Positions 54,910 to 61,530 of a DNA stretch of 64,000 nucleotides are shown piece after piece. The notes beneath the pieces are model-generated. The model saw only the letters and a program-made list of their open reading frames with translations, made no database searches and was not told the origin of the DNA. The first letter of the stretch is position 1. The number at the start of each line of letters is the position of its first letter. This DNA is from Luteibacter rhizovicinus. GTDB lineage: Bacteria; Pseudomonadota; Gammaproteobacteria; Xanthomonadales; Rhodanobacteraceae. The position numbers and the translations under genes are program-made. The stretch covers positions 744,001-808,000 of the forward strand of contig NZ_SMCS01000001.1 of NCBI RefSeq assembly GCF_004342265.1, in the 5' to 3' direction.

Positions 54910-54947
54910 TATAACATGTGTCGAAACCCCAATCAAAGGAGTGGATA
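54910..54947 (+). promoter_or_regulatory. Ribosome site and possible -10 box deciding the DyP start
   Basis: AAAGGAG (54935-54941) lies 6 bases before GTG 54948, a near-ideal ribosome site. TATAAC at 54910-54915 could be a -10 element; a TTGACC at 54883 is 21 bases away, too far for a standard promoter, so the -35 assignment is open. Confidence 0.5.
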
Positions 54948-56000
54948 GTGCCTTCCGTTATTACGCAGCCGGTTGCCGCCAGACTTACGCACGCCGCCAT
55001 TTTTCTGGTGGTGACCTTAAAGCCGAATACGCAATGTAACGAACCCGTGCGAGCGCTTTGCGGCGATCTGGCATCTCTCTTGCGTGCCATCGGGTTTCGT
55101 AACCCGGACAGGCGCCTGTCGTGCGTCATGGGCGTCGGGTCGGTGGCCTGGGACCGACTTTTCGGAAGGCCAAGGCCAGCCGATCTGCATCCCTTTCGGG
55201 AAATCAAAGGCGAACACCACGCCGTCTCCACACCGGGAGACATACTCTTCCATATTCGTGCCACGCACATGGACCTGTGCTTTGAGCTGGCAACCCAGAT
55301 CATGTCCCGTATAGGCGATGTTGTTACCACGGTGGATGAAGTGCATGGCTTCAAGTACTTCGACGAGCGCGACCTGCTGGGCTTTGTCGACGGCACCGAG
55401 AATCCGGTGGATCAGGATGCCCTCGATGCCACGATCATTGGCGACGAGGATCCCACCTTCGCAGGCGGGAGTTACGTCATCGTGCAGAAGTATCTCCACG
55501 ACCTGAAGGCCTGGAACGCCGTGCCCGTCGAGCAACAGGAGGGGATCATCGGACGGAAGAAGCTTTCGGATATCGAACTGGACGATGCCGCCAAACCCGC
55601 TTACGCACACAACGTCCTCACCACCATTGAAGAAAGCGGCGAGCAGTTGGAAATCGTGCGCGACAACATGCCTTTCGGCGAGGTGGGCAAGGGCGAGTTC
55701 GGAACCTTCTTCATCGGCTACGCGCGATCCCCGGCCCGGATCGAACAGATGCTCGTCAACATGTTCGTCGGACGACCGCCAGGCAACTACGACCGCCTGC
55801 TCGACTTCAGTAAGGCGGTAACGGGTACGTTGTTCTTTGTGCCGTCCGCGACGTTCCTCGCCAATGTGCCTGCCGCTCCTTCACCCGATAGTTCACCCGT
55901 TGCCGAGGGCGAGACGGCCGGTGTCCCTGAATCCTATCGGCCGTCGTCCGACGGTTCGCTCGGTATCGGTTCGCTCAAAGGAGAATCGGCAAATGAATAA
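54948..56000 (+). CDS. DyP-type peroxidase, encapsulin cargo
   Basis: A 350-residue dye-decolorizing peroxidase. It carries GFVDGTENP (about 144-152, with the catalytic Asp), the distal Arg region and RSPARIEQMLVNMFVG. The C-terminal extension after a Pro/Ser-rich linker ends DGSLGIGSLKG, the conserved encapsulin-loading peptide. The protein would be packed inside the shell encoded by the next gene and oxidise substrates with H2O2. GTG 54948 is fixed by the strong AAAGGAG; the stop overlaps the encapsulin start by 8 bases. Confidence 0.95.
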   Translation: MPSVITQPVAARLTHAAIFLVVTLKPNTQCNEPVRALCGDLASLLRAIGFRNPDRRLSCVMGVGSVAWDRLFGRPRPADLHPFREIKGEHHAVSTPGDILFHIRATHMDLCFELATQIMSRIGDVVTTVDEVHGFKYFDERDLLGFVDGTENPVDQDALDATIIGDEDPTFAGGSYVIVQKYLHDLKAWNAVPVEQQEGIIGRKKLSDIELDDAAKPAYAHNVLTTIEESGEQLEIVRDNMPFGEVGKGEFGTFFIGYARSPARIEQMLVNMFVGRPPGNYDRLLDFSKAVTGTLFFVPSATFLANVPAAPSPDSSPVAEGETAGVPESYRPSSDGSLGIGSLKGESANE

Positions 56001-56799
56001 TCTTCATCGCGATCTCGCACCCATTTCCGGTAAGGCATGGGAGCAGATCGAGCAGGAAGCGGCGCGGACCCTGAAGCGCTACCTGGCGGCGCGACGTGTC
56101 GTGGATGTCGTGGGCCCGAAAGGCTCCGATTTCTCGGGTGTGGGCACCGGTCACATGGAGAAGATCCAGTCGCCCGATAACGGCATCGAGGCTTCGTTGC
56201 GTGAAGTGATGGCTCTTGTGGAACTACGTGTTCCGTTCGAGCTGTCGCGTCAGTCCATCGATTCGGTGGAGCGCGGCGCGAACGATCCGGACTTGCAGCC
56301 GCTGAAGGATGCCGCGCGAAAGATCGCTTTCGCCGAAGATCGTGCGGTCTTCGAAGGCTACGAATCCGCCGGCATCCAAGGCATTCGCCACGGAACCAGC
56401 AATGCGGCAATCGCTCTCCCTTCGGATGTGGATAGCTATCCCGTCGCGGTGGCGAAGGCGGTAAGCCAGTTACGCGAAGTGGGCGTCAATGGTCCCTACA
56501 CACTACTGCTGGGCGAGCAGCCCTATACCGCTGTCAGTGGGGCCACGGAAGAAGGCTATCCCGTGGTCAAAGACATCCGGAACCTCGTGGATGGCGAGAT
56601 TATCTGGGCACCGGCTATTAAAGGCGGCGTTGTGCTCAGCACGCGGGGTGGCGACTTCGAACTTCACCTTGGTCAGGACACCTCCATCGGGTACCTGAGC
56701 CATACCGAGAGTTCCATTCGCTTGTACTTGCAGGAGTCGTTCACGTTCCTGCAATTGACCGCGGAAGCCGCCGTGGTGCTTGCACCTGGCGATAAGTGA
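55993..56799 (+). CDS. Family 1 encapsulin shell protein
   Basis: A 268-residue HK97-fold protein with the family 1 encapsulin sequence: MNNLHRDLAPISGKAWEQIE at the N-terminus, RRVVDVVGPKGSDFSGVGTGH, GANDPDLQPLKDAARKIAFAED and the C-terminal YLQESFTFLQLT. It assembles into an icosahedral compartment whose inner surface binds the DyP targeting peptide. ATG 55993 lies inside the end of the DyP gene, coupling shell and cargo translation. Confidence 0.95.
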   Translation: MNNLHRDLAPISGKAWEQIEQEAARTLKRYLAARRVVDVVGPKGSDFSGVGTGHMEKIQSPDNGIEASLREVMALVELRVPFELSRQSIDSVERGANDPDLQPLKDAARKIAFAEDRAVFEGYESAGIQGIRHGTSNAAIALPSDVDSYPVAVAKAVSQLREVGVNGPYTLLLGEQPYTAVSGATEEGYPVVKDIRNLVDGEIIWAPAIKGGVVLSTRGGDFELHLGQDTSIGYLSHTESSIRLYLQESFTFLQLTAEAAVVLAPGDK

Positions 56800-58378: not shown

Positions 58379-59224
58379 ATGACTCACGCGAACGACAGCC
58401 GGCTCGGCGACTATCTGAAGAACAGGCGCACGAAGCTGGATCCTGCGTCTTTCGGTTTCTCCGGTGGCCGGCGGCGGACAGCCGGGCTTCGCCGGGAAGA
58501 AGTGGCGCAGCTCGCCAACATCAGCACGACCTGGTACACGTGGCTGGAGCAGGGCCGCGGCGGCAACCCGTCAGCGGACGTGCTGGACCGCATCGCGAAA
58601 GCGCTGACGCTGACCGAGGTGGAGCGCGAACACCTGTTTCTGCTCGGACTCGGCCGTTCGCCCGAAGTCCGCTATCGCGGCGGCGACGCGATCACGCCGC
58701 GTCTGCAGCGCTTGCTCGATGCACTTGCCTACAGTCCCGCGATCGTCAGGACGGCGACATGGGACGTGGTCGCCTGGAACAGCGCGGCCGCGGCCGTGCT
58801 CACCGACTACGGCTCCCTGCCACCCGAACAGCGCAACGTCCTGCGCATGATCTTCTGCGATCCCCGCGTTCGCGCCGCGCAGTTCGATTGGGAAAGCGTG
58901 GCCCGCTTCGTGGTGGGCGCCTTCCGGATCGATGCCGCGCGCGCCGGCGCGGCAGCCGAGGTGCAACCGCTCGTCGACGAATTGTGTCGTTCGAGTCCGG
59001 AGTTCGCTGCCATGTGGCGTGACAATGACGTGCGAACCTACGGCGAAGGGGTGAAGCACTTGCGCCATCCCGTGCTCGGCAAAATCGCTCTCGAATATTC
59101 GGCTTTCGCGGTCGACGGGCGCCCGGATCTTCAGATGATCGTGTACAACCCGGCGACACCGGTCGATCAGGAGCGAATCAGGTCTTTGATCGAGGGTATG
59201 GGTGCGGCCTGTATTGGAAAGTAA
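58379..59224 (+). CDS. XRE-family regulator with MmyB-like ligand domain
   Basis: A 281-residue regulator. The N-terminal helix-turn-helix is RTAGLRREEVAQLANISTTWYTWLEQGRG (about 35-63), the distinctive RRTxGLRREEVA motif of the MmyB family; the C-terminal PAS-like ligand domain has VVAWNSAAAAVLTDYG and KHLRHPVLGKIALEYSAFAVDG. In MmyB this domain binds a fatty acid-type ligand. It is divergent from the SDR gene. ATG 58379 follows directly on the operator repeat. Confidence 0.92.
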   Translation: MTHANDSRLGDYLKNRRTKLDPASFGFSGGRRRTAGLRREEVAQLANISTTWYTWLEQGRGGNPSADVLDRIAKALTLTEVEREHLFLLGLGRSPEVRYRGGDAITPRLQRLLDALAYSPAIVRTATWDVVAWNSAAAAVLTDYGSLPPEQRNVLRMIFCDPRVRAAQFDWESVARFVVGAFRIDAARAGAAAEVQPLVDELCRSSPEFAAMWRDNDVRTYGEGVKHLRHPVLGKIALEYSAFAVDGRPDLQMIVYNPATPVDQERIRSLIEGMGAACIGK

Positions 59225-59439
59225 TCAATTATTCGCTATCTATAATGCGGATAAAATATCTATGTTTCATATGGATATGGGGATTACTTCGTAGGTCTCG
59301 CCTAGAGCGGCCGTCACTGCGTATGCCTTGTTTTATAATAAATCCCAATCTCGAGTTCGAGGATATCGGGTGGCACAAAACCGTGATACGGTAAGCGTGC
59401 CGCTATGTCGCGGTATGTCTACCTTATGGGAGTGCGTTC
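59225..59439 (+). promoter_or_regulatory. AT-rich leader of the candidate RiPP cluster
   Basis: A 215-base gap with markedly lower GC than its neighbours. TATAAT occurs at 59241-59246 and 59334-59339; the latter, about 100 bases before the peptide gene, is the better -10 candidate, but no matching -35 box is clear at 16-18 bases. GGAG (59429-59432) lies 7 bases before the peptide's ATG. Confidence 0.45.
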
Positions 59440-59613
59440 ATGGATCAACTAAACGTTGTGATGCACGAAAAGACAGAGAATACGATTAATCCTTTCGGCA
59501 TCCTCATGGAAGGGCCGTTGCAGATTCAGATGGCGGCAGGAAAGCGTGCTCCCAAAACGATAGACCCAACGGATGTCGGCGGTTTCGGTGGCCGTGGCGG
59601 CGGTGATGGCTAA
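59440..59613 (+). CDS. 57-residue Gly-rich precursor-like peptide
   Basis: A small gene with GGGAG 7 bases before ATG 59440. The first 40 or so residues look like a leader (MDQLNVVMHEKTENTINPFG, then ILMEGPLQIQMAAGKRAPKT), and the end is IDPTDVGGFGGRGGGDG, 8 glycines in the last 11 residues with single F, R and D. There is no Cys, so no lanthipeptide or thiazole chemistry from Cys. An intrinsic terminator and an asparagine-synthetase/lasso-cyclase-like gene follow, the layout of a RiPP precursor and its maturation enzyme. The leader has a Pro-hydrophobic-Gly pattern loosely like lasso leaders, but the core is not a standard lasso sequence. Confidence 0.65.
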   Translation: MDQLNVVMHEKTENTINPFGILMEGPLQIQMAAGKRAPKTIDPTDVGGFGGRGGGDG

Positions 59614-59658
59614 CCGGATTTGAATGCCATATCTTGAAGTCACTCATAAATGATGTAA

Positions 59659-59690
59659 AGCCGCCTCCTAACCGGGAGGCGGCTTTTTTT
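59659..59690 (+). terminator. Strong intrinsic terminator between peptide and enzyme genes
   Basis: AGCCGCCTCC (59659-59668), 6-base loop, GGAGGCGGCT (59675-59684) and seven T (59684-59690). It is placed to make a short abundant transcript of the peptide with limited read-through into the enzyme, a common arrangement in RiPP operons. Confidence 0.9.
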
Positions 59691-59706
59691 ATGGATAGAA
59701 ATCATC

Positions 59707-61272
59707 ATGCTCAAGGCCGATATTACTTTGTCCGACCTTTCGCTTAGTGCGGAGTGGAGAGATGGCTCCATCGCATTAGGAACAAGCCGGATCATTCCCT
59801 ATGCGCACCCTATGCTCGAAACGGCGCTGGTGCGGACGGAGGGGCAGTGGTTCGTAACAGTGAGGGAGCGCCTTGCCCCGGTGCCATCCGACAAAGTCCC
59901 TGCATGCAGAGATGTGGATGCCGAGGAATTTCAAAGGCTTTACCAAGAGTGCATTCTGTGGCCGCTCGATTATGTACTGATCGAGGTTGCCCAGGCGGGA
60001 TGCCGAATGAGAGTGCGAACCGGCGTGCTCGGCTCCGTACCGGTTTATTGCCGGGCCGCCAACGACAAAGTAACCATTTCCTGGGATTTCGCGGATTTCG
60101 CCAATGAGCCCCTGGCGATCGATGCAGAGATCGCAAGTCATCGGCTTGCTCTGAGTACGATCTATTCGGCGCGGCAGCTATGTGTCGGCGTCACGCTGCT
60201 TACGGAGCGTGCCTCATTCCATGTGGAACCGGGCAAAGCGAATTATCGATACCCCGTGCCGATGGAAGAAACCTCTCCGTCACCCTTGCCGGAAGGTCAG
60301 GATGCGTTGAGGGTGTTCAGCGAACTTTTGCAGCGCGTCGTATCGGCTCGGCCGATAGCGATGGATCGGGTATCGATCGAACTGAGCGGTGGCATGGACT
60401 CGGCCACCGTGGCCTGCGCTGTAGCGGCATTTCATGGACGAATGGCGAGCAAGGGAATTTTACTGGATGGCGATGTTCGCCAACCTCAGATTCAACGGCG
60501 TCAATGGATAACCAGCCGGCTCGATCTGTCCGACGAAACCGTGGAAATCGCGGCGTTTCCGCCAAATCTGGATCTGCAAGAGCACCAGGCAAGAGGACTG
60601 TACTGGGAGTACTACCTGGAAGCGTGCACGGCCTTATGGGAATCGGCGCGAGTCCAGGGGCACGATATGCTTTTCACGGGCATTGGCGGAGATGAGTTAT
60701 TTCCAGGCTATGCCAACGAAAAGCAGGAAGAGGGCGGGGGGAAACCGGGGAAGGAAAATGAGGCCACGCACTACGCGGAGCGGCTTATGACGCCCCGTGC
60801 ATTGAGCGCAGCCCGCAGCATGCGGTGTTTCGATGCACCAGCCAGTCCCGTACCGGCGACTGCGTTACTGGCTCATGCGTGCCGTGCGCCCGATCTGCTG
60901 CGACATGGCTTGTGGCCAGTCAATCCACTGAGCGATCCCGGTCTCGTAGCCTTCTGCCACCGGCTTCCCCGGGACAGTCGGCAGGGCCGGGAGGTCATGC
61001 GGCAATACTTGCATGCGCGCCTGGGTAGCGAAGTGTTCCCTCGTAGCTACATCAAGGAAACTTTTGCGCGGGTACTTCCCGATCTGATTTCCCGGCAGGC
61101 CGCAACGATTGCCTCGCAGTTGCGTGATTGTGCTCTGGCCGATCTTGGTCTGGTCGATCAGAGAGCCGCTCTCGCGCTGTTGGATACCGTGGCCGCTACG
61201 CGGGCGCAGGCGCCCACCGCGGCGCTGGCTTCGTTTCTCTGGATGGAGCGATGCGTTCGGCAGATACGCTGA
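59707..61272 (+). CDS. Asparagine synthetase / lasso-cyclase-like ATP-dependent enzyme
   Basis: A 521-residue protein. The C-terminal half is an Asn_synthase domain with the ATP pyrophosphatase loop ELSGGMDSATVAC (about 225-237) and TGIGGDELFPGY (about 322-333). The N-terminal half resembles a degenerate class II glutaminase domain: it starts MLKAD, so the nucleophilic Cys2 of true glutamine-dependent synthetases is missing, as in lasso cyclases (McjC). It likely adenylates a carboxylate of the peptide encoded just upstream for amide or macrolactam formation. No McjB-type protease or transporter gene is present in the window. Confidence 0.85.
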   Translation: MLKADITLSDLSLSAEWRDGSIALGTSRIIPYAHPMLETALVRTEGQWFVTVRERLAPVPSDKVPACRDVDAEEFQRLYQECILWPLDYVLIEVAQAGCRMRVRTGVLGSVPVYCRAANDKVTISWDFADFANEPLAIDAEIASHRLALSTIYSARQLCVGVTLLTERASFHVEPGKANYRYPVPMEETSPSPLPEGQDALRVFSELLQRVVSARPIAMDRVSIELSGGMDSATVACAVAAFHGRMASKGILLDGDVRQPQIQRRQWITSRLDLSDETVEIAAFPPNLDLQEHQARGLYWEYYLEACTALWESARVQGHDMLFTGIGGDELFPGYANEKQEEGGGKPGKENEATHYAERLMTPRALSAARSMRCFDAPASPVPATALLAHACRAPDLLRHGLWPVNPLSDPGLVAFCHRLPRDSRQGREVMRQYLHARLGSEVFPRSYIKETFARVLPDLISRQAATIASQLRDCALADLGLVDQRAALALLDTVAATRAQAPTAALASFLWMERCVRQIR

Positions 61273-61402
61273 TTTGTCGGCAGGCTTCGAGCTTTCCATC
61301 GACCGCGTTGACGAGTCCTTGCGGCTACGCATCGTCCTGTCGTCATTGTTGCGATGCAGCTTGAGTCGTATTTGAAATTGTCCAAGTATGCGACAGGGGT
61401 GT

Positions 61403-61417
61403 ATTTGTACGACAAAT
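61403..61417. promoter_or_regulatory. 15-base palindrome upstream of the alpha-galactosidase
   Basis: ATTTGT-ACG-ACAAAT is perfectly symmetric and lies about 115 bases before the start codon in an AT-rich stretch of a 258-base gap. It is a possible operator for a LacI- or similar-type regulator located elsewhere. No -35/-10 boxes were assigned. Confidence 0.45.
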
Positions 61418-61530
61418 GAATTTCCTTGGGGGTTGCAAGGTCTTGCTCCTTGTTTTAGCCATCCATCGAAGGGAATTTCGTATCTGAATCATCATTGGAA
61501 TCCATACGAGTGAACGGCTTAGTACTCGCA

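Follow-up and report, generated by a model that had tools for sequence, protein, structure and literature searches.

A peptide and enzyme gene pair in Luteibacter and other bacteria: a candidate protease-free system for lysine-aspartate lactam peptides

A peptide gene and an asparagine-synthetase-like gene in Luteibacter rhizovicinus

We analyzed a 64,000-nucleotide stretch of the genome of Luteibacter rhizovicinus (assembly GCF_004342265.1, contig NZ_SMCS01000001.1, positions 744,001 to 808,000 of the forward strand; here called the window, in which all coordinates below are given) and focused on two genes on its plus strand at 59440-61272. The first gene (59440..59613) encodes a peptide of 57 amino acids and is preceded by the ribosome binding site GGGAG (59428..59432), seven bases 5' of the ATG. 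The second (59707..61272) encodes a 521-amino-acid enzyme that resembles asparagine synthetases and lacks the glutaminase residue Cys2. An intrinsic terminator (59657..59693, plus strand) separates the two. Its stem of 13 pairs (59657-59686) is followed by a T run, its fold z-score is -5.0, and none of 200 shuffled sequences was equally stable. An original prediction made from the DNA sequence had described a peptide gene with a good ribosome site, a strong terminator and an asparagine-synthetase-like enzyme without Cys2, and we confirmed all of these. We propose that the two genes probably make up a minimal protease-free system for a ribosomally synthesized and post-translationally modified peptide (RiPP), in which the enzyme would close a lactam between Lys39 and Asp45 of the peptide.

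The peptide gene was assigned from its open reading frame (ORF), an alignment of precursors and selection at the codon level. Residues 17-28 form a leader motif, NPFGILMEGPLQ (59488..59523), that is the proposed recognition sequence for the enzyme. The motif has the pattern NPFG...EGPLQ, and F19 is 20 residues N-terminal to K39. The codons for Lys39 (59554..59556), the proposed nucleophile, and Asp45 (59572..59574), the proposed adenylated acid, bound the predicted ring, residues 39-45 (KTIDPTD). A Gly-rich C-terminal tail of 12 residues, VGGFGGRGGGDG (59575..59610), follows; all of these lie on the plus strand. An encoded precursor with leader-like and core-like parts here lies beside a candidate modifying enzyme, as expected of a RiPP system. 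The peptide of the window matched no family in Pfam or NCBIfam searched to E 1, and four representative precursors matched none at E 0.01.

The peptide and the enzyme are conserved together

The two genes are found together in related genomes. We searched 61 genomes (relatives plus the genome of the window) and found the enzyme in 18. Two of these had weak matches (G027 and G059) and the other 16 were real carriers, with 17 full-length copies of the enzyme. The original prediction had suggested looking for a peptide gene next to homologous enzymes, and all 17 full-length loci, including that of the window, had one directly upstream; one locus (L005) had two copies before the enzyme. When the neighbors at the 17 loci were clustered, the enzyme was the sole family present in all. 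The next cluster, from six loci, consisted of opposite-strand ORFs that lie inside the peptide gene or immediately 5' of it; the remaining families recurred in at most four of the 17 loci. A separate family scan of 116 of the 132 listed neighbors together with seven window proteins matched 171 families, of which 25 were listed, and a family missing from that list may still be present.

The peptide gene is under purifying selection at the codon level. The ratio of nonsynonymous to synonymous differences per site (pN/pS) was 0.15-0.46 in 28 Luteibacter-type pairs, 0.23 for L019 and L065, and 0.50 and 0.53 for the window compared to two relatives; pairs of unequal length (L001/L046, L003/L095 and L004/L006) were skipped. 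The original prediction had held that enzymes without a conserved upstream peptide gene, or a peptide frame without codon-level conservation, would speak against it, and neither was seen. We are highly confident that the peptide and the enzyme are related as precursor and enzyme.

The enzyme of the window is 79% identical to that of Dyella tabacisoli and 57-63% identical to enzymes from its own genus. Because of this closer similarity to the Dyella enzyme, together with the changing neighbors, the sequences suggest that the cassette moves between strains. In a search for an empty site, the two regions that flank the cassette in the window were not found side by side in eight members of the genus. 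There are also duplications: two precursors precede one enzyme in L057 (-2327 to -447 of the enzyme) and in L005, and L095 has two enzymes, each with its own precursor.

A lysine and an aspartate at fixed spacing recur in the precursors

We found that one pair of residues is shared by nearly all of the precursors. In 18 Xanthomonadales-type precursors the invariant columns were M1, N17, F19, P26, K39, D45 and G54. The original prediction had placed the reactive core in the Gly-rich end, starting at G47, and had counted D56 as its acid. This did not hold up. The Gly-rich stretch is variable, the terminal GGxGG or DG(WG) is not always present (L003, for example, ends in GTIHGGG), and the C-terminal Asp is absent from some relatives, L003 among them. 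K39 and D45 had been passed over because the core was started at G47 and only D56 was counted.

The pair stood out in a scan that used no motif filter. We scanned the regions around 71 distinct copies of the enzyme, some of them partial, and took all same-strand ORFs of at least 30 codons whose ends fell from -160 to +15 relative to the start of the enzyme gene. Within the last 45 residues we counted every combination of two residues and spacing (20 x 20 x 15 = 6000 types). Lys-x5-Asp ranked first of the 6000 and was present at 58 of the 71 copies. When the copies were grouped at 70% identity it was present in 37 of 46 clusters, and at 60% in 26 of 31. Over 200 shuffles this pair averaged 12.5 (maximum 19) for all copies, 8.5 (maximum 17) at 70% and 5.9 (maximum 12) at 60%, and no pair of any type exceeded 42, 28 and 19, respectively.

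A search guided by the motif accounted for 12 of the 13 misses, which had either Lys-x6-Asp or a precursor outside the search bounds. In three loci a Lys-x5-Asp precursor lay beyond the bounds, further upstream in L073 and L092 and with a mis-set start in L076. In L056, L059 and L069 the precursor is downstream of the enzyme and has Lys-x6-Asp. In L057, L103, L058, L060, L062 and L104 an upstream precursor has Lys-x6-Asp (further upstream in L057 and L103). The region upstream of the enzyme in L128 contains Ns and is unreadable, and this locus is outside the assigned 70. The guided tally for the 71 copies was 61 with Lys-x5-Asp, nine with Lys-x6-Asp and one unreadable. The guided script took the first Lys-x5-Asp, that is, K35-D41 instead of K39-D45 in several Luteibacter precursors, a leader pair instead of the C-terminal pair in L070, L073 and L091, and a later Lys-x6-Asp in L056; the counts were unaffected.

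The Lys-Asp pair recurs in precursors that are otherwise unlike. Examples are KTIDPTD (window), KIDDVGD (Luteibacter), KVRLPGD (Mesorhizobium), KNRFPGD (Cupriavidus), KGGKPGD (Rhizobium), KESGSSD (Actinomycetota), KAPGPED (Saccharopolyspora), KGSGTRD (Flavobacteriaceae), KRTSSVD (Sphingobium) and KPSQGYD (Saccharibacteria). Two further rhizobial enzymes, outside the 71 and 23-25% identical to the enzyme of Rhizobium locus L088, have precursors of 31 amino acids with KFLVRGD and KFQLSGD.

The pair is rare in loci with lasso-type cyclases. As controls we used 30 loci with lasso/ikarugamycin-type cyclases from the order of Streptomyces, called lasso-type by the cyclase family NF033561 (only some are above its cut-off). 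The pipeline was nearly the same (ORFs of at least 25 codons ending between -200 and +45 of the assumed start), and 26 loci could be scored. Only one of the 26 had Lys-x5-Asp, in contrast to 58 of the 71 copies of the family described here. Three marks of lasso precursors dominated in the controls and were less common here: Gly-x7-Asp (19/26 versus 18/71), Pro-x-Leu (19/26 versus 22/71) and Gly-x5-Thr (18/26 versus 22/71).

The enzymes form a separate branch without Cys2

The enzyme of the window matched the Pfam family Asn_synthase (PF00733; E 7e-12, 46.1 bits, cut-off 21). It contains the PP-loop SGGMDS (residues 227-232), TGIGGDE (residues 324-330) and E451, which is invariant in the family. 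G229, D231 and S232 of the PP-loop were invariant in alignments of 27 and 32 sequences. The enzyme starts with MLKA, that is, without Cys2, the general glutaminase residue. In 38 aligned family members, with start codons of our choosing, position 2 was Leu in 25, Ile in seven, Phe in five and a gap in one, and never Cys.

Members of the superfamily in NCBIfam were matched far below their cut-offs. The best were the albusnodin/ikarugamycin macrolactam cyclases (NF033561), with 37.7 bits compared to a cut-off of 300. A "linaridin-like RiPP" match from NCBIfam inside the enzyme was also below cut-off and we took it as noise. The closest solved chains were beta-lactam synthetase (E 7e-11), a hydroxyamidotransferase (E 2e-6) and the carbapenam synthetase CarA (E 2e-5).

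A maximum-likelihood tree was built from 27 lasso-type cyclases, AsnB of Escherichia coli and 38 enzymes of the family, and these 38 made up one side of a branch with support 100/99. This tree has only a midpoint root, several of its long branches were flagged, and support for the lasso-type group was 85/54. The two groups also differ at particular columns. Q261 is present in all 38 family enzymes and is Asp in 26 of the 27 lasso-type cyclases. R264 and R265 are present in 37 of the 38, in contrast to Ala at 265 in all 27 lasso-type cyclases, and E451 is present in all 38, in contrast to Gly in 20 of the 27.

Proposed mechanism

A lysine at a fixed distance gives nearly all of the proposed substrates an amine in common. 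In the mechanism that we propose, the conserved leader motif of the precursor would be bound by the enzyme, probably through the glutaminase-like N-terminal domain, which is inactive. At its PP-loop site, that of an asparagine synthetase, the enzyme would adenylate Asp45 on the side-chain carboxylate. Attack by the Lys39 side-chain amine, with loss of water, would then join the two residues by an isopeptide bond and close residues 39-45 into a lactam ring. The terminator between the genes would let the precursor be made in excess over the enzyme. An enzyme without Cys2 is not known to draw ammonia from glutamine. With no such supply of ammonia expected here, an internal amine is the natural nucleophile. 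The lysine amine would take the place of the freshly cut N-terminus of lasso peptides. If lysine supplies the amine, then a dedicated leader protease and a RiPP recognition element (RRE) protein are not needed, which would explain the two-gene layout.

The sizes of the predicted rings fit this proposal. By hand calculation, Lys-x5-Asp would give a ring of 26 atoms (five from the Lys side chain, two from its CA and C, 15 from the five intervening residues, two from N and CA of Asp and two from its CB and CG) and Lys-x6-Asp a ring of 29 atoms. These equal the lasso rings Gly1-Glu8 (26 atoms) and Gly1-Glu9 (29 atoms). Given the equal size, an active site like that of a lasso cyclase could close the ring with the leader still attached, and a B protease would be unnecessary. 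Since the rings are of lasso size and most tails have 6-15 residues, some of the products may be threaded, with both chain ends free. That is, lasso-like knots may be among the products predicted from these sequences.

Alternative explanations

The genes might instead be a lasso-type system with an unlinked protease. A protease encoded elsewhere would cut N-terminal to residue 37 (APKTIDPTD) and free an amine that closes a nine-residue ring on Asp45; Lys39 would then matter for another reason. The distant relationship of the enzyme to lasso-type cyclases is consistent with this, as is the position nine residues from the Asp, often Ala, Glu, Leu, Met or Tyr. A P-x-I-x-x-x-G stretch in Luteibacter precursors also resembles lasso leaders. 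In contrast, residue 37 varies, and the lysine is nearly universal although lasso rings require none. The precursors also fit poorly to a lasso core, which has an N-terminal nucleophile, Asp or Glu at positions 7-9 and Thr at -2 of the leader: the window (the one precursor in which position -2 was read) has K35-R36 before A37 and no Thr, and the three lasso marks listed above were commoner in the controls than here.

The search for lasso partners also argued mostly against this alternative. The original prediction had noted that no McjB or RRE adjoins the cassette, which we confirmed, and had suggested a search for a distant McjB-like gene, which had a mixed outcome. The genome of the window has a single match to the lasso protease family PF13471, just above the cut-off (28.9 bits compared to 26), in a frame of 511 amino acids on another contig and not beside the cassette. 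There was no PF13471 match in the carrier G005, a single-contig genome. The genome of the window had no match to PqqD/RRE (PF05402, E 0.001), a search that a very divergent RRE could escape. PqqD was likewise without a match in 12 of the 16 carriers; the other four have one, on a different contig or at a long distance. In none of the 16 carriers among the relatives, the genomes that these tests cover, was a match to either family near the cassette; the nearest was about 87 kb away (G003). All in all, we consider a lasso-type system unlikely.

We think it even less likely that the enzyme converts a carboxylate, either the Asp side chain or the C-terminus of the peptide, to an amide or a nitrile. 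Amides and nitriles are known outcomes of asparagine-synthetase-like RiPP enzymes, and TsrC, ScdTA and PesC act in this way at C-termini, according to preprint PMC13060819. In the family described here the C-termini are freely variable (Gly, Asp, Leu, Met, Tyr, Arg, Thr, Val and others), and such a reaction would leave the lysine at fixed spacing without explanation. Amidation of the Asp is less likely because Cys2 is missing in 38 of 38 members and the lysine at fixed spacing is nearly universal. The original prediction had left open whether the enzyme of a protease-free class would amidate the peptide or crosslink it; crosslinking is probably right, judging from the sequences, and amidation is not favored.

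It is also possible, and about equally improbable or slightly more so, that the Asp reacts with an external amine, such as a metabolite or a lysine of another peptide, to give conjugates or polymers with the peptide as a carrier. External amines can capture adenylates of the asparagine-synthetase type, and in two Rhizobium records the gene pair lies behind an acyl-homoserine-lactone (AHL) synthase gene. Only an intramolecular bond, however, would demand a distance between Lys and Asp that is fixed at five or six residues. Least probable of all is that the enzyme does not modify the peptide, which would instead be its regulatory subunit or the product of a leader ORF. The two genes are closely linked, and in proteobacterial loci a terminator lies between them (27 of the 61 loci scored had a terminator-like hairpin with a perfect stem, and each of these 27 is proteobacterial). 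However, some precursors are downstream of the enzyme or duplicated, selection acts on the amino acids, and distant precursors share the Lys and the Asp.

Several observations weigh against the Lys39-Asp45 lactam. The tally of 70 of 71 depended on motif-guided placement at eight loci, with only 58 of 71 found unguided, and related copies among the 71 are not independent. The pair is not always unique: precursors L008, L009 and L011-L015 have K35-D41 as well as K39-D45 (numbered as in the window), two Lys-x5-Asp pairs that overlap, and the Rhizobium KGGKPGD has two lysines. The conserved lysine could serve in recognition instead. Lys at column 450 is present in all 27 lasso-type cyclases and in only 23 of the 38 family enzymes (in a divergent alignment). 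Because this lysine is not kept throughout the family, the active site differs and the chemistry may too. The PF13471 match in the genome of the window counts here as well. No sigma-70-type promoter was recognized within 59200-61500. Some rhizobial cassettes have a kinase, an acetyltransferase and an ABC transporter in addition, so the two-gene form is not universal. The Lys-Asp bond is a prediction from the sequences, which we regard as probable.

Comparison with known systems

The cassette shares several features with lasso systems (McjB/McjC; NF033561, NF033535): a short precursor, a terminator, an asparagine-synthetase-like candidate cyclase that is homologous to the lasso enzymes but below their cut-offs, Asp as the proposed acid, and computed rings of 26 and 29 atoms that match Glu-closed lasso rings. 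In contrast to lasso systems, there is no protease or RRE adjoining and usually no transporter, and a lysine would replace the N-terminal amine. The enzymes differ from lasso cyclases in forming a separate branch and in having other residues at columns 261, 264, 265 and 451.

The predicted linkage from side chain to side chain resembles that of graspetides and microviridins. Lactam-type graspetides link Lys to Asp or Glu and are made by ATP-grasp ligases; in contrast, the enzyme described here is of the Asn_synthase/PP-loop type. Beta-lactam synthetase and carbapenam synthetase (1jgt and 1q15), among the closest solved structures, also let an internal amine attack an adenylated carboxylate, with small molecules as substrates and a four-membered ring as the product. 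However, only profile positions 93-331 (1jgt) and 94-252 (1q15) align. The graspetide/microviridin class of RiPPs with side-chain macrolactams and macrolactones is described in PMC13097080.

TsrC, ScdTA and PesC are, like the enzyme described here, asparagine-synthetase-like enzymes that modify a carboxylate of a ribosomal peptide. According to PMC13060819, they direct ammonia onto a C-terminal carboxylate, and PesC was shown to use glutamine or ammonia. In contrast, the family described here lacks Cys2 and has a conserved lysine in the substrate. This 2026 preprint gives the RiPP reactions of the superfamily as lasso cyclization, C-terminal amidation (TsrC, ScdTA) and nitrile formation (PesC), and its survey of PF00733 lists about 3,800 RiPP-linked candidates, about 3,500 of them lasso and about 300 uncharacterized. 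A 2026 review of interlocked peptides (PMC13352647) describes lasso closure as a reaction in which the N-terminus attacks an Asp or Glu that has been adenylated, and lariocidin as a lasso peptide with a second isopeptide bond.

We found no description of this precursor and enzyme pair, or of the Lys-Asp reaction in this enzyme family, in the open-licence literature, although it may be in print elsewhere. There is a fair chance that the cassette deserves a class of its own. We consider it somewhat more likely than not that this is a new class of RiPPs in the Pseudomonadota and Actinomycetota, and on single contigs of metagenome-assembled genomes (MAGs) from a Flavobacteriaceae and a Saccharibacteria member, in which a Lys-Asp lactam would be formed on the uncut precursor. 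If true, a Lys-Asp lactam synthetase with an asparagine-synthetase-like fold would be a new reaction beside N-terminal lasso closure, amide formation and nitrile formation, and would show a cyclase working without a protease partner. It could also allow peptides to be stapled at Lys-x5-Asp sites with a single enzyme. The proposal gives a concrete activity for a whole branch of enzymes, with natural examples on rhizobial plasmids beside AHL synthase and nif genes.

Distribution and variants of the cassette

A scan of a species-level genome collection found 43 loci, in Dyella, Luteibacter, Luteimonas, Pinirhizobacter, Rhodanobacter, Frateuria, Xanthomonas, Mesorhizobium, Cupriavidus, Frankia, Streptomyces, Kitasatospora, Sphingobium and other genera. 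Relatives of the enzyme were on a single MAG contig each from Flavobacteriaceae and Saccharibacteria. Depending on the query, 43 to 54 of 72,556 plasmid records had matches, mainly from Rhizobium and Bradyrhizobium, and phages had no match to the enzyme. Carriage was 31 of 233 genomes in the family of the window, 2 of 397 in the order of Mesorhizobium and 13 of 394 in the class of Streptomyces. In two other genome sets (1 of 244 and 1 of 295) the sole match was the genome at the center of the search; that genome is counted in all of these rates except the first.

Some rhizobial versions are longer. An APH-type kinase and a GNAT acetyltransferase are 3' of the enzyme in one Mesorhizobium and on two Rhizobium plasmids. 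In L142:3818-8662, L143:5971-8857 and L089:6843-9986 a precursor of 31 or 54 amino acids, the enzyme, the kinase and the acetyltransferase overlap or abut in that order. An ABC transporter is near the longer cassette on both Rhizobium plasmids. The kinase and acetyltransferase possibly function in tailoring or self-immunity. Among Streptomyces plasmids, two have an ABC protein downstream and a third has a methyltransferase.

On two Rhizobium plasmids (L088:5866-8599 and L141:6859-9553) the pair is right behind the AHL synthase gene, before nifHDK and near rhiA, and the peptide there seems likely to be under quorum control. In R. johnstonii 3841 and five other plasmid records the enzyme matches are in two or three pieces, and in seven plasmid records, mostly from clover, only 34% of the enzyme is covered. 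Based on these fragmented and partial matches, the system seems to decay in some lineages.

Precursors L008, L009 and L011-L015 share nearly the same last 25 residues, even though their genes differ at about 30-70% of synonymous sites. The near-invariant Luteibacter core suggests, and we hold this weakly, a signal or a self-directed function over a toxin in an arms race.

Elsewhere in the window, a gene for a DyP-type peroxidase is followed by an encapsulin shell gene (Linocin_M18; 54918-56799), an ordinary encapsulated peroxidase pair.

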